Shown here in pieces: positions 7,661-14,654 of a DNA stretch of 64,000 nucleotides; position 1 is the first letter of the stretch, and each line of letters begins with the position of its first letter. Origin of the DNA: Verrucomicrobia bacterium LW23 (GTDB lineage Bacteria > Verrucomicrobiota > Verrucomicrobiia > Methylacidiphilales > UBA1321); contig QAZA01000045.1 in assembly GCA_003054695.1 (NCBI GenBank), positions 693,956 to 757,955 of the forward strand, in the 5' to 3' direction. The position numbers were made by a program, and so were the translations under genes. The notes under the pieces are model-generated. The model searched no databases. It saw only the letters and a program-made list of their open reading frames with translations, and was not told the origin of the DNA.

Positions 7661-7861
7661 ATGAGTGACACCTGCTCTTCATCGTCGTGCTCCGCCAACA
7701 AATGTGCGGACAAATCGTCGTCGCCCACCAGCATCCAGAACGGAAAGGGCGACGCCCCACGCAACATCAGCGAGTCCTTCCGCAGCAACTACGAAGGCAT
7801 ATCCTGGTCAGGCCCCCGCACCCGTGTGGAAGGGAGCAAGACGAAAAAAGTCTATCGCTAG
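7661..7861 (+). CDS. Small Cys/Ser-rich protein, GKGDAPRN motif
   Basis: A 66-residue protein of unknown function. A strong AAGGAG lies 8 bp before the ATG, which decides the start. Residues 1-20 are Ser/Cys-rich (MSDTCSSSSCSANKCADK) with three Cys that could bind metal. Residues about 28-50 carry NGKGDAPRN followed by an F-x-x-N-Y-x-x-I-x-W pattern. I recall that arrangement from small uncharacterised bacterial and phage proteins, so it may be a conserved orphan family. The C-terminus is basic. An intrinsic terminator 120 nt downstream separates it from the UBact-proteasome operon. Confidence 0.75.
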   Translation: MSDTCSSSSCSANKCADKSSSPTSIQNGKGDAPRNISESFRSNYEGISWSGPRTRVEGSKTKKVYR

Positions 7862-7978: not shown

Positions 7979-8022
7979 ATCCCCCTTTTTGCGGAAGGGC
8001 TCCGCAAAAGGGGGATTTTTTT
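7979..8022 (+). terminator. Strong intrinsic terminator
   Basis: A 14-bp stem, CCCCCTTTT..GCGGA paired with TCCGCAAAAGGGGG, with one bulged T and a short loop, followed by seven T. It terminates the 7661-7861 transcript, so the UBact operon probably has its own promoter. Confidence 0.8.
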
Positions 8023-8248: not shown

Positions 8249-8461
8249 TTGGATAGTCCCAAACCCTTCAACGATCTGATTCTCATGCCCGACCAACTGC
8301 AAAAGCCACGCCCGCAGACACTTCCGCCCGAGTCCGGCCCCGGCGGAGGAGGGCCGTCAGCGCCGAAAAGTGAACGTCCCGATGTGAGCGACCTGCTCAA
8401 AAAGATGCGCAAGGTAGATCCCGACCAGGCCAAACGCTACCGGCAACGCACGGGCGAATGA
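8249..8461 (+). CDS. ubact: UBact / Pup-like protein modifier
   Basis: A 70-residue disordered, ubiquitin-like tag. The C-terminal half has the UBact pattern: RPDVSDLLKKMRKVDPDQAK, then RYRQRTGE. It ends in Gly-Glu, so the terminal Glu can be ligated directly with no Gln deamidation step. The N-terminal half is Pro/Gly-rich without structure. The likely start is TTG at 8249, 5-6 nt after GAGAGGT; an in-frame ATG at 8204 gives an implausible hydrophobic extension. The stop overlaps the prcB ATG (ATGA). It tags proteins for the proteasome encoded next to it. Confidence 0.9.
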   Translation: MDSPKPFNDLILMPDQLQKPRPQTLPPESGPGGGGPSAPKSERPDVSDLLKKMRKVDPDQAKRYRQRTGE

Positions 8462-9345
8462 TGACGCCCCACCTCCCCGCCCTCGCCGCGCCTGTGGCGA
8501 GCGGCCCCGCGTCCTCCTTCTCCGGCGATTTTTTTGATCTGCTGCGCCGCACCGGCACCTCGCCGTTTCCAGACGCCGCCGCGCTCTCCCGCGCGGGTGG
8601 TGCGCCCGGCGCCGTGACGATCGGGCATTCGCCCTCGCTCAGCGCCGAGGCGACAACTGTCATCAGCTTTCACTTTCGCGATGGCGTGGTGATTGCCGGC
8701 GACCGCCGCGCCACGGCCGGCCATACTATTATGTATGACCGCGCGGACAAAGTCATCGAGATTGACGCCGATACGGTGATGGCCATCGCCGGCACCCCGG
8801 CCACGGCCTTTGAGATGGCGCGCACCCTTGCCCACAGTTTCCAGTACTACCGGCGCAGCCAGCTGCAGCCGCTTAGCCTGGAGGCGAAAGTGCGCGCCCT
8901 CGGCCGGCTTATCCGCGAGAATCTGGCGATGACGCTGCAGGGTGTCGGCATGGTCGTGCCCATCCTGGCCGCGCAGCACCGGCCCGGCCTGGACGCGGCC
9001 CTCGGTGCGGGCGCCGCCATCCCGCCCACGCTTTATTTTTACGATGCGCTGGGCGCGCAGTTTCTGGCCGTGGACCACGCCATGAGCGGCAGCGGCTCCC
9101 CCGCGGCGCGCAGCGTGCTCAACTACATCAACCGCTGGAGCGGCAAACTGGCGCGCGAGCGCGACGAACGCGAAGCGATCGCCCTGGCCCTACAGCTTCT
9201 CGAAGTCGCCGCCGAAACCGATACCGCCACGGGTGGCATCGACCGCCGCACCCACATCTACCCCCAGGTGAAGGTGCTTACCGCCCCTGGCGGCACGCGC
9301 GATGTCTCCGTAGAGGAGATGCGCGAGGTTTTGCCGGGGATTTAG
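8458..9345 (+). CDS. prcB: Proteasome beta subunit
   Basis: Catalytic subunit of the bacterial 20S proteasome. A propeptide of about 65 residues precedes the expected autocleavage site, Ala65/Thr66 (SAEATTVISF). Counting Thr66 as Thr1 puts Asp at 17 (Asp82 in AGDRRAT), Arg at 19 and Lys at 33 (Lys98 in YDRADKVIEI), the full catalytic set. The 230-residue mature subunit is normal. The start ATG overlaps the UBact stop (ATGA), so the two are translationally coupled. The gene order UBact-prcB-prcA-pafA is interrupted here by a SUKH gene. Confidence 0.95.
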   Translation: MMTPHLPALAAPVASGPASSFSGDFFDLLRRTGTSPFPDAAALSRAGGAPGAVTIGHSPSLSAEATTVISFHFRDGVVIAGDRRATAGHTIMYDRADKVIEIDADTVMAIAGTPATAFEMARTLAHSFQYYRRSQLQPLSLEAKVRALGRLIRENLAMTLQGVGMVVPILAAQHRPGLDAALGAGAAIPPTLYFYDALGAQFLAVDHAMSGSGSPAARSVLNYINRWSGKLARERDEREAIALALQLLEVAAETDTATGGIDRRTHIYPQVKVLTAPGGTRDVSVEEMREVLPGI

Positions 9346-9418
9346 AGTGCGGCGCCAGGTGATGTGCCGGGCACACCTCGGCATCGCGGCACCGCGCAGA
9401 TATACAAAAGGGATAACT

Positions 9419-9970
9419 ATGGAGATAAAGCCGCCCGGCAGCCGTATCACCCTCGACGACCTGAAACGCGTTCTCACCCCTCCGCCTTCCCTCGCCAGCA
9501 AGCCATCCCCCTCGGATTGGCGTCGCCTCGGCTTCGATCTCCCCCACGACTACAAACTATTTATCGAAACCTACGGCGCCGGGAGTGTCAGCAGCGTTCT
9601 TAACGTGTTTAGCCCGTTTGCGTTATGCGAAGGCTGCAACATGTTGGCCGAACTCAAAAAGGTCACCCAGCTTGGCGAGGAAATGGGGGCTGATTTTTCC
9701 GATCTGGCCGTCGATACGTGCTACTTTCCCCACAAAGGGGGGCTGCTTCCCTTCGCCCTTACCGAAAACCACCAGTATATCTTCTGGATTACCACCGGCC
9801 CGGCGGACAGATGGCGTCTGTGTTGCGGGGAAGATACGGACTTTCTGGACCTGATGGAGCATATCCCGATGAAAACCGTGGAGTTCTTCTATCATCTTGT
9901 CGCTAACAGAGATATGCTTCCTTTTGGTTACGAGCTCGACGTGCCTTGTCCCTATGATCCTGTGCTATGA
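9419..9970 (+). CDS. SUKH (SMI1/KNR4) domain protein in proteasome operon
   Basis: A 183-residue SUKH-fold protein. Visible elements: an N-terminal helix followed by W-R-R-LGFDLPHDYKLFIETYGAGS (the usual LP-x-DY-x-x-F-L-x-x-Y-G-x-G block), FSPF, and the later strand pair LLPFALTENHQYIFWITTGP with an aromatic-rich core. SUKH proteins are best known as immunity proteins against contact-dependent and polymorphic toxins, and more generally as protein-binding modules. The gene lies 73 bp after prcB and overlaps prcA by ATGA, so it is co-transcribed and coupled. Its function with the proteasome is unknown; adaptor or substrate selector is inference. Confidence 0.85.
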   Translation: MEIKPPGSRITLDDLKRVLTPPPSLASKPSPSDWRRLGFDLPHDYKLFIETYGAGSVSSVLNVFSPFALCEGCNMLAELKKVTQLGEEMGADFSDLAVDTCYFPHKGGLLPFALTENHQYIFWITTGPADRWRLCCGEDTDFLDLMEHIPMKTVEFFYHLVANRDMLPFGYELDVPCPYDPVL

Positions 9971-10809
9971 TTGACGAACCTTACCGCTGGCTGGAGGCCG
10001 TGCAAAATCGGCGCGAGTACATTGAAGATCGCATTGCCGGCGGCCTGCCCATGGTCGTTATTGCCGGCACCCCCGGCATCCTCCTCATTGGCCCGCGCGC
10101 GTCCACGCCCAAAATCTTTGAGATTTACGACCGGCTGGCCCTTGGCTGCCTGGGCCACCCGGCGGATCTGGAGCGGGTGCGACAGGCTGCCATTGATGCC
10201 GCTCATGTGGAAGGCTTTACGCGCTCCCCGCACGATGTCACCGCGCGCCGCCTCGTCAACTACTCGCTGGGGCCGGCGCTTAAGAATGCGTTTGAGCAGA
10301 TCCTTGCCGCGCCGCTCCTCTTTCGTGGCTTACTGGCTGAGCTGCAGGCAGATACATCAGCCGCCGCAGACAACATCTGGATCCTGGACTACGACGGCAC
10401 CTGGCGCACCGCCGCCGGCCCGGACGCCGCCCGCGGCTGCCTCGTTGTGGGCGACAAGCAGAAGCAGGCCGCCTGGGAGAAACTGTGCGCCCACCCCGCC
10501 GCGCACACCGCGGACGCCGCGCATCCCCCCGCCCCGCGCTTTCCCGAGGGCCCCGCCACGACGCTCCCCGAGCTTGCCGGCCGGGCCCTGCGCATTCTCG
10601 GCTTCGCGCTCTCGCCCGGCCATGGCCGTGGGGATTCCGCCGCGGAGATATGGGCGTCCGTCCCTTCGGATGTTGCTGAGCTTAAGCGACTTGTGTTGTC
10701 CGAGAGCCACGGCTCGCTCGAGGCCGCCCTGCTGGATCGCACCCTCCTGCGCCCCGGCGCCGCCGTCACCTTCCGCCCCGCCACCCTGCAGGAGCTCGCC
10801 ATCGCATGA
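9967..10809 (+). CDS. prcA: Proteasome alpha subunit
   Basis: A 280-residue non-catalytic outer-ring subunit of the 20S proteasome. It has the alpha-type start (EPYRWLEAVQNRREYIEDRI) in place of a Thr1, then VVIAGTPGILLIGPR and KIFEIYDRLALGCLGHPADL, resembling the first strands and helix H1 of actinobacterial PrcA. An Ala/Pro-rich stretch (about residues 170-200) is probably a disordered insertion. It starts in the SUKH stop (ATGA) and ends in the pafA start (ATGA). Identity rests on sequence plus position. Confidence 0.9.
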   Translation: MIDEPYRWLEAVQNRREYIEDRIAGGLPMVVIAGTPGILLIGPRASTPKIFEIYDRLALGCLGHPADLERVRQAAIDAAHVEGFTRSPHDVTARRLVNYSLGPALKNAFEQILAAPLLFRGLLAELQADTSAAADNIWILDYDGTWRTAAGPDAARGCLVVGDKQKQAAWEKLCAHPAAHTADAAHPPAPRFPEGPATTLPELAGRALRILGFALSPGHGRGDSAAEIWASVPSDVAELKRLVLSESHGSLEAALLDRTLLRPGAAVTFRPATLQELAIA

Positions 10810-12278
10810 AGCGCCTGGCCGGCCTGGAGACCGAGTACGGATGTCTGGTGCCTGACTCCTTTGGGCTGCCCACGGTGCCCGTCCGTGTCAAGGAGCACCT
10901 GTTCAAAAAGCACCACGTTGGCCTGATTGACCTGCACGACCGCGACTACGACGAACCGGCCGGCAACGGCGGCTTCCTCTACAACGGCGGCCGCCTGTAC
11001 CTGGATATGGGCCATGTGGAATACTGCACCCCCGAGTGCCTGAGCCTGGCCGACGTGGTGGCCTACGACCGCGCCGGCGAGGAGCTGCTGCAGCTGGCCC
11101 TGCACGAGCTGGGCCTGGCCCACAAGGTCAGCTTCATCAAGAACAACATCGACCACTACACAAGCGCCACGTTCGGCTGCCACGAGAACTACCTGCTGCA
11201 ACGCGACGCCCCCCTGCACCAGCGCAATGTCGATACGCTGCTCGCGTTCCTCTCCACGCGCATTCTGCTCGTCGGCGCCGGCCGCGTGGGCGTAACCCTG
11301 GCGCCGCGCCGCTACGGCAAGCAGGAGCCCGCCGACCAGGCTCTGTACCAGATCTCCCAGCGCGCGGATTTTATCCAGACGGATATCTATGAGTGGGTGC
11401 AGTTCAACCGCGCTCTCATCAACGCACGCGACGAGCCGCTTGCCGACTACCGCCGCTTTCGCCGCCTGCACCTGCTGCTGGGCGACAGCAACGTGCTGCC
11501 CTACGCCAACGCCCTTAAAGTCGGCACCTCTGCGCTGGTGCTGGATCTCCTTGAGGCCGATGCACTTCCAAAGATCTCGCTGGTCGATCCTGTCCGTTCC
11601 ATGCGCCAGCTCTCGCATCACCCGGACGGCCCGTGGACCGTGGAGCTGACGGACGGCGAGGAGATCAGCGCGCTGGACGTGCAGGAGGCATTCCTTACCG
11701 CCGCGCGCAGCGGCGCCATCGATCTGGACGCCGACGCGCGCTGGACGATCGACGCCTGGGAGAGCGCTCTGCTGCACCTGCGCGCCGAGCTGCACACACC
11801 CGGCGACGGCGCGGCGCTGATCGGCAAGCTGGACTGGATTACCAAGCGCTTCCTGCTCAGCTCATTCATTGAGGCGGAGGGAAAGTCGTGGCGCGACCCG
11901 TGGATCGAAAGCCTGGACCTGGAGTACCACCAGCTTAATGTCGAGCGATCGCTGATTGCTGAGTTTGAAGGCTACGCCATGCAAAGCCTTGGGCTCAAGG
12001 ATCTTGCGCCCGCCGGGGACGGCGCCGCCTCCGCGCGCGACTACACGATGCTTCCCCCGCCCGACACCCGTGCCGCCGTACGCAGCGAGGCCATGCATGT
12101 GATCGCGGAGAAAAAGCTGCCTTACATGCTGGACTGGGACCTGATTTACGTGGGCGAAGGCCGGCAAATATTGCTGGAAGATCCTTTCTCCACGGAACTT
12201 GCGCAGCTGGAGCCGCTTCGCGCCGCGGTACCGCCCGCCTCTGGCGGCAGCGATGGAGAACGCGCCGCAAAAGGCTAG
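10806..12278 (+). CDS. pafA: Pup/UBact ligase
   Basis: A 490-residue carboxylate-amine ligase of the glutamine-synthetase superfamily that joins the UBact C-terminal Glu to substrate lysines using ATP. Family blocks: GLETEYG (Glu8, metal), NGGRLYLDMGHVEY with the catalytic-type Asp67, YDRAGEELL, FIKNNIDHYTSATFGCHENYL, ISQRADFI, INARDEP, RRLHLLLGDSN and LKVGTSALVLDLL. There is no long Dop-loop before the Asp, so it reads as ligase and not depupylase. No separate dop gene or Mpa/ARC ATPase is visible in the window, so those functions must lie elsewhere. Confidence 0.93.
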   Translation: MKRLAGLETEYGCLVPDSFGLPTVPVRVKEHLFKKHHVGLIDLHDRDYDEPAGNGGFLYNGGRLYLDMGHVEYCTPECLSLADVVAYDRAGEELLQLALHELGLAHKVSFIKNNIDHYTSATFGCHENYLLQRDAPLHQRNVDTLLAFLSTRILLVGAGRVGVTLAPRRYGKQEPADQALYQISQRADFIQTDIYEWVQFNRALINARDEPLADYRRFRRLHLLLGDSNVLPYANALKVGTSALVLDLLEADALPKISLVDPVRSMRQLSHHPDGPWTVELTDGEEISALDVQEAFLTAARSGAIDLDADARWTIDAWESALLHLRAELHTPGDGAALIGKLDWITKRFLLSSFIEAEGKSWRDPWIESLDLEYHQLNVERSLIAEFEGYAMQSLGLKDLAPAGDGAASARDYTMLPPPDTRAAVRSEAMHVIAEKKLPYMLDWDLIYVGEGRQILLEDPFSTELAQLEPLRAAVPPASGGSDGERAAKG

Positions 12279-14090: not shown

Positions 14091-14654
14091 ATGCTTTCCT
14101 CAACCTTGCGTTCCGTTCTCTACACTGCTGCCGCAGCCATTATCAGTATTATGAGCATCCTTCCCAACCTTGCCTCCGCCAATGCCGGCGAGCCTCTGAA
14201 AGAGGGCGATCCGGCGCCGCAGGTCTCATCGGTGGATCACGACGGCAAGGAAGTTGATCTTGCCAAACTTTACGGCCCCGGCTTTACGCTGGTCTATTTT
14301 TACCCCAAGGCCGATACGCCCGGCTGCAAGACGCAGGCCTGCACGCTGCGCGATGCGTTTACCCAGCTGCAAAGCAAGGGCATTGTCGTCATCGGTGTCA
14401 GCACCGACAAGCCCGAGGCGCAGAAGGCCTTTCGCGACAAGTACCAGCTCCCCTTCACCCTGTTGGCGGATTTTAGCCAGAAGGTGGTGCAGGCTTTCGG
14501 CGTGCCGGCTACCAACGGCATCGCCGCGCGGCAATCTTTCCTGATCAAGGACGGCAAGGTGGTGTGGCGCAACCTTAAGGAGGTGCCCTCCAAGCAGGCG
14601 GAAGAAGTTCTCCAGGCTGTGGCGGATTACGCCAAGGCCAACCCGGGGCGCTGA
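14091..14654 (+). CDS. Exported thioredoxin-dependent peroxiredoxin (Bcp/PrxQ type)
   Basis: Reduces hydroperoxides with a peroxidatic cysteine. The motif TPGCKTQACTLRD shows the peroxidatic Cys and a resolving Cys five residues later, which is the PrxQ/Bcp layout. VYFYPKADTPGC precedes it, and IGVSTDKPEAQKAFRDKY follows. Residues 1-27 form a signal peptide (SILPNLASA), so the enzyme probably works in the periplasm, unlike cytoplasmic Bcp. The total is 187 residues. No Shine-Dalgarno is evident. Confidence 0.93.
   Translation: MLSSTLRSVLYTAAAAIISIMSILPNLASANAGEPLKEGDPAPQVSSVDHDGKEVDLAKLYGPGFTLVYFYPKADTPGCKTQACTLRDAFTQLQSKGIVVIGVSTDKPEAQKAFRDKYQLPFTLLADFSQKVVQAFGVPATNGIAARQSFLIKDGKVVWRNLKEVPSKQAEEVLQAVADYAKANPGR

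Follow-up and report, generated by a model that had tools for sequence, protein, structure and literature searches.

In the UBact-proteasome operons of Verrucomicrobiota and Armatimonadota the genes follow the order dop-UBact-prcB-prcA-pafA; the literature searched here yielded no study devoted to UBact. Descriptions of orphan immunity genes mostly concern arrays and not housekeeping operons. Genes of the SUKH (SMI1/KNR4) family are the commonest members of homogeneous polyimmunity loci, which are thought to be a backup against the toxins of non-kin (PMC3482391), and in Bacteroidales orphan SUKH proteins neutralise effectors (PMC12247911). The stretch of 64,000 nucleotides analysed here (the window), from an uncultured verrucomicrobial bacterium, includes a UBact-proteasome operon with a SUKH gene between prcB and prcA. 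This gene, at positions 9419–9970, is probably, though with considerable room for doubt, an orphan immunity gene that arrived by horizontal transfer and occupies a permissive slot of an otherwise ordinary operon.

Gene content and layout of the operon

The genes UBact, prcB, SUKH, prcA and pafA were found in this order, all on the + strand, and both coordinates and profile matches confirmed the arrangement proposed in the initial annotation. UBact (8285–8461, + strand) encodes a ubiquitin-like modifier of 58 aa that matched, above the cut-off, PF20513 (E = 1.6e-22) and NF033388 (E = 2.9e-20). The protein includes the conserved KMRKVDPDQAKRYRQR core and ends in RYRQRTGE, thus having at its C-terminus Glu, one of the two residues (Glu or Gln) by which UBact modifiers are recognised. 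Its start is probably the ATG at 8285 (MPDQ...) rather than the TTG at 8249, because MPDQ or MPEQ opens the UBact of most relatives. The gene of the proteasome beta subunit, prcB (8458–9345, + strand; 295 aa), matched PF00227 (E = 1.9e-20) and, below the cut-off, TIGR03690 (E = 4.9e-41). That of the alpha subunit, prcA (9967–10809, + strand; 280 aa), matched TIGR03691 below the cut-off (E = 1.2e-13), and its product was 47–70% identical to the PrcA of relatives across the matched parts. The UBact ligase gene pafA (10806–12278, + strand; 490 aa) matched Pup_ligase PF03136 (E = 1.7e-106). The core of a proteasome operon is thus present, with pafA in place and prcB and prcA adjacent except for the SUKH gene (9419–9970, + strand; 183 aa) between them.

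Also the three ATGA overlaps reported earlier were present, at 8458–8461 (UBact/prcB), 9967–9970 (SUKH/prcA) and 10806–10809 (prcA/pafA), as was the gap of 73 bp (9346–9418, + strand) between the prcB stop at 9345 and the SUKH ATG at 9419, so that the SUKH gene lies within the operon and overlaps prcA. A consensus scan, the only method used for such sites, found no promoter-like site at the SUKH junctions, the 73-bp gap included. The same kind of scan detected a strong terminator-like hairpin of 14 pairs followed by ATTTTTTTGT upstream of UBact (7982–8014, + strand), preceding the operon. Upstream of this hairpin there is a small ORF of 66 aa (7661–7861) with no Pfam or NCBIfam match, and about 1.8 kb downstream of pafA an AhpC/TSA-type peroxiredoxin gene (14091–14654).

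A second gene of the Pup_ligase family, which the profile built here names dop, was located on the same contig at a distance of 593 kb. A candidate for the proteasomal ATPase (ARC/Mpa type) scored 430 bits over positions 20–509, below the cut-off of 504.75 bits. None of the operon proteins matched the PADLOC defence models. The genome is 6.6 Mb in size and 95% complete, and an assembly join exactly at the SUKH gene is unlikely, as the gene is interior to the 1.01-Mb contig within which the window lies.

Family membership of the inserted gene

When the inserted protein was compared alone with Pfam, the match to PF09346 was weak (E = 1.3e-4; 23.0 bits against a cut-off of 25.4). Nine proteins, this one and its SMI1/KNR4 relatives, align near full-length, the residues W34, P42, D44, G53, W123 and W132 being invariant, and SUKH_6 and SMI1_KNR4 were matched by eight and seven of the nine, respectively. 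A profile of the nine proteins found the solved Bacillus subtilis YobK (2prv) at E = 2.3e-4, and Lin2918 (2icg) at E = 0.13 only. As the alignment, the Pfam matches of its members and the profile match to YobK all agree, we regard the predicted product as a settled member of the SUKH family by sequence comparison. Its subfamily we regard as a divergent one. The identity to relatives was 21–34% overall and 21–30% in the alignment. The AlphaFold2 single-sequence model had a pLDDT of 39, too poor for recognition of a fold.

The prcB–prcA interval in other operons

Operons from genomes of the same order, to which Methylacidiphilum-type genomes belong, were compared together with 80 UBact loci from named genomes, the genes being mapped with our own profiles. 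After duplicate records were removed by means of a hand-made list, 71 distinct UBact operons in which prcB and prcA neighbour each other remained, the window operon included, and the gaps were measured by profile edges. The median gap was 41 bp and the largest, 639 bp, was that of the window operon. A SUKH gene was present in the interval of none of the 70 other operons, which bears out the earlier statement that such a gene is not known from bacterial proteasome operons. The search of other UBact genomes suggested with that statement thus gave, among the genomes compared, no relative carrying SUKH in the interval, an outcome named there beforehand as a refutation, and retention across related genomes, the mark of an accessory factor, was seen in 0 of 70 operons, the genus of the window (g1) being represented by one genome.

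The interval was filled in other ways elsewhere. Seven operons of the sister genus (g2) had gaps of 474–576 bp holding a gene of an Ohr-family peroxiredoxin (TIGR03561, E = 3.8e-46); they derive from seven of the eight g2 genomes and from seven species (L028, L029, L032–L036), and in each of these genomes the Ohr of the slot was the sole one detected. The eighth genome (G002), which is only 65% complete, had a gap of 37 bp and no detected Ohr. The window genome has an Ohr gene of its own on contig C39. The gap of L136 (431 bp) included an ORF of 107 aa (8998–9321) without a recognised family and membrane-like by eye. The other 62 operons had spacers of 7–360 bp with no recognised gene, and a three-frame reading of the Methylacidiphilaceae spacers, judged by eye, revealed no obvious common frame.

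The tree of prcA, prcB and dop placed g1 and g2 as sisters (bootstrap 100), and different genes have therefore come to occupy the slot inside this clade. Since the sister genus holds Ohr there, the slot accepts unrelated cargo and demands no proteasome-specific partner. This weakens an explanation in which the SUKH protein was domesticated as a partner of the proteasome, that is, recruited as a substrate adaptor, an assembly factor or a regulator. In favour of such a role, some eukaryotic F-box proteins bear SUKH-like domains. The role would also suit a gene lying between two core-particle genes and sharing an ATGA overlap with prcA, and also the nature of SUKH proteins as protein-binding modules, whose superfamily has been adapted for eukaryote-specific functions (PMC3482391). 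The gene is, however, missing from all 70 other operons despite the same core genes, the sister genus has a different gene in the slot, and beyond the position we found no positive support for the role, which we consider quite unlikely. The hint at a substrate selector or an assembly factor made in the initial annotation gained no support, no relative having SUKH there and the sister genus having the unrelated Ohr.

That SUKH replaced an ancestral Ohr gene was considered but not adopted, because one gain followed by replacement and two separate gains both fit the sister relationship of g1 and g2.

The conserved prcB-ohr-prcA arrangement of g2 is the more interesting by-product of the comparison. 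Kept in seven species, the Ohr insertion has a stronger claim than the SUKH gene to be functionally coupled with the proteasome, and it gives a concrete pointer to co-expression of organic-peroxide defence with some UBact proteasomes. It could also be imagined that the slot gathers protective genes, Ohr against organic peroxides and SUKH against toxins, to be expressed with the proteasome under stress. That the slot Ohr is the only one detected in seven of the eight g2 genomes agrees with this, as does the link of the actinobacterial Pup-proteasome to oxidative stress, including the cumene hydroperoxide resistance of mutants (PMC8223512). Ohr and SUKH nevertheless have no chemistry in common and are associated by position only, and the idea, although compatible with orphan immunity, appears very improbable to us.

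Additional genes were observed also at other points of UBact loci. In two genomes of g2 (L067 7608–7997 and L068 3070–3393) similar small proteins of 107–129 aa are encoded in the interval from dop to UBact, and the 107-aa member had no Pfam match. Similar membrane-like proteins of 94–100 aa lie between UBact and prcB in L074 (8171–8455) and L138 (2738–3040), with a weak match to EMC6_arch below the cut-off (E = 0.008). L125 has a 2.5-kb insertion with several ORFs between prcA and pafA (9610–12099), and in L073, L105 and L133 prcB is followed by other, transporter-like genes, with no prcA detected.

Composition and origin of the SUKH gene

The SUKH gene had a GC content of 0.551 and a GC3 of 0.66, against 0.65–0.68 and 0.79–0.83 in prcB, prcA and pafA, and of the 47 genes crudely called in the window only two had a lower GC content. 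Also the Ohr slots of g2 were somewhat G+C-poor, and a low G+C content can have causes besides transfer.

No relatives of the protein were found in the 11 other genomes of the family. Three weak ones were present among 383 other genomes of the class, and a profile search of the phylum sample added two others; none of these lies in a proteasome operon. A degenerate pattern scan of genome contigs gave no confirmed relatives, and the phage records gave no match. The window genome has no second copy of the gene at E ≤ 1, its three other SUKH genes being family members only. A horizontal origin is the natural reading of the gene. Nothing marking a mobile element was seen among repeats at the insertion borders.

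Its occurrence in one genome only, its deviant composition and the lack of an adjoining toxin gene would also agree with a chance landing so recent that the gene is still intact, with no selected function. Against such a neutral passenger stand the intact frame of 183 aa, which keeps every residue invariant among relatives, and the undamaged state of both flanking genes; we judge it unlikely.

Neighbourhoods of SUKH relatives

A tblastn search against plasmid records found 16 records with relatives at 26–34% identity, and the neighbourhoods of six were read. In all six, toxin-type genes adjoin the SUKH relative or lie near it. The first relative overlaps an RHS-core gene, the second overlaps a gene of a DNA/RNA non-specific endonuclease, and the third lies 17 bp after another gene of this endonuclease type. 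The fourth is flanked by VENN pre-toxin genes, and the fifth is separated by one small gene from a DUF4781 gene, the toxin nature of which is less sure. The sixth follows an Rhs-like ORF at about 250 bp in an Escherichia coli record that is unannotated there. In the window genome itself, contig C25 (L058 9295–18967) includes an RHS-Hint-HNH gene of about 3070 aa overlapping a SUKH gene, and SUKH genes beside toxin-type genes therefore exist also in this organism. Beside the SUKH gene of the operon no toxin-like gene was found in the window, and therefore only an 'orphan' immunity gene is proposed. From the roles offered in the initial annotation the neighbourhoods favour the immunity protein, in the sense of toxin defence.

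If the SUKH protein were a domesticated adaptor that captures specific clients, possibly incoming toxins, and passes them to UBact tagging and degradation, it would confer immunity by targeted proteolysis and not by blocking the toxin. We think this very improbable; if true, bacteria would have in it an equivalent of the substrate receptors of ubiquitin systems.

Orphan immunity as the preferred reading

Because close relatives carry a different gene or nothing at the slot, it is likelier that the SUKH gene is a passenger than that it is a new part of the proteasome. As an orphan immunity gene, it would have been acquired by horizontal transfer and have settled between prcB and prcA. Its ATGA overlap with prcA, taken together with the negative promoter scan at its junctions, suggests joint transcription with the proteasome genes and translation coupled to that of prcA. 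By analogy with the homologue neighbourhoods, its product would most likely bind and neutralise a polymorphic toxin, probably a nuclease, that competitors deliver. The gene would thus draw steady expression from the operon without having a role in proteolysis.

Several points speak against orphan immunity: the toxin-type neighbourhoods come from six of the 16 plasmid records; the gene lacks the array setting usual for such genes; with a single genome for the genus its retention cannot be judged; the putative function is carried over from distant proteins (21–34% identical); and the intact frame with its tight prcA overlap also fits a selected role in the operon. If the reading of the slot is true, lineage-specific cargo is tolerated in UBact-proteasome operons, even at a site between the two core-particle genes, and guilt by association there therefore needs care.

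Comparison with known systems

The window operon has UBact, prcB, prcA and pafA in the same order and on the same strand as the described UBact-proteasome operons, from which it differs by the SUKH gene between prcB and prcA. In the relatives for which the upstream region was covered dop lies upstream of UBact, whereas that of the window genome is distant. The SUKH relatives of the plasmid set belong to the same family and align near full-length, but the window protein is 21–30% identical to them in the alignment, and its gene has no adjoining toxin gene and is situated within a housekeeping operon. An immunity-type gene without an adjacent toxin is shared with the orphan SUKH of the Bacteroidales rAID systems (PMC12247911) and with polyimmunity loci (PMC3482391); unlike in these, a single gene lies here in an operon of other function, with no array and no recombinase found beside it. 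In position the gene resembles the insertion of the prcB-ohr-prcA operons of g2 in the family UBA1321, which have an extra gene in the identical slot, the cargo in their seven species being Ohr, a protein unrelated to the SUKH of the window.
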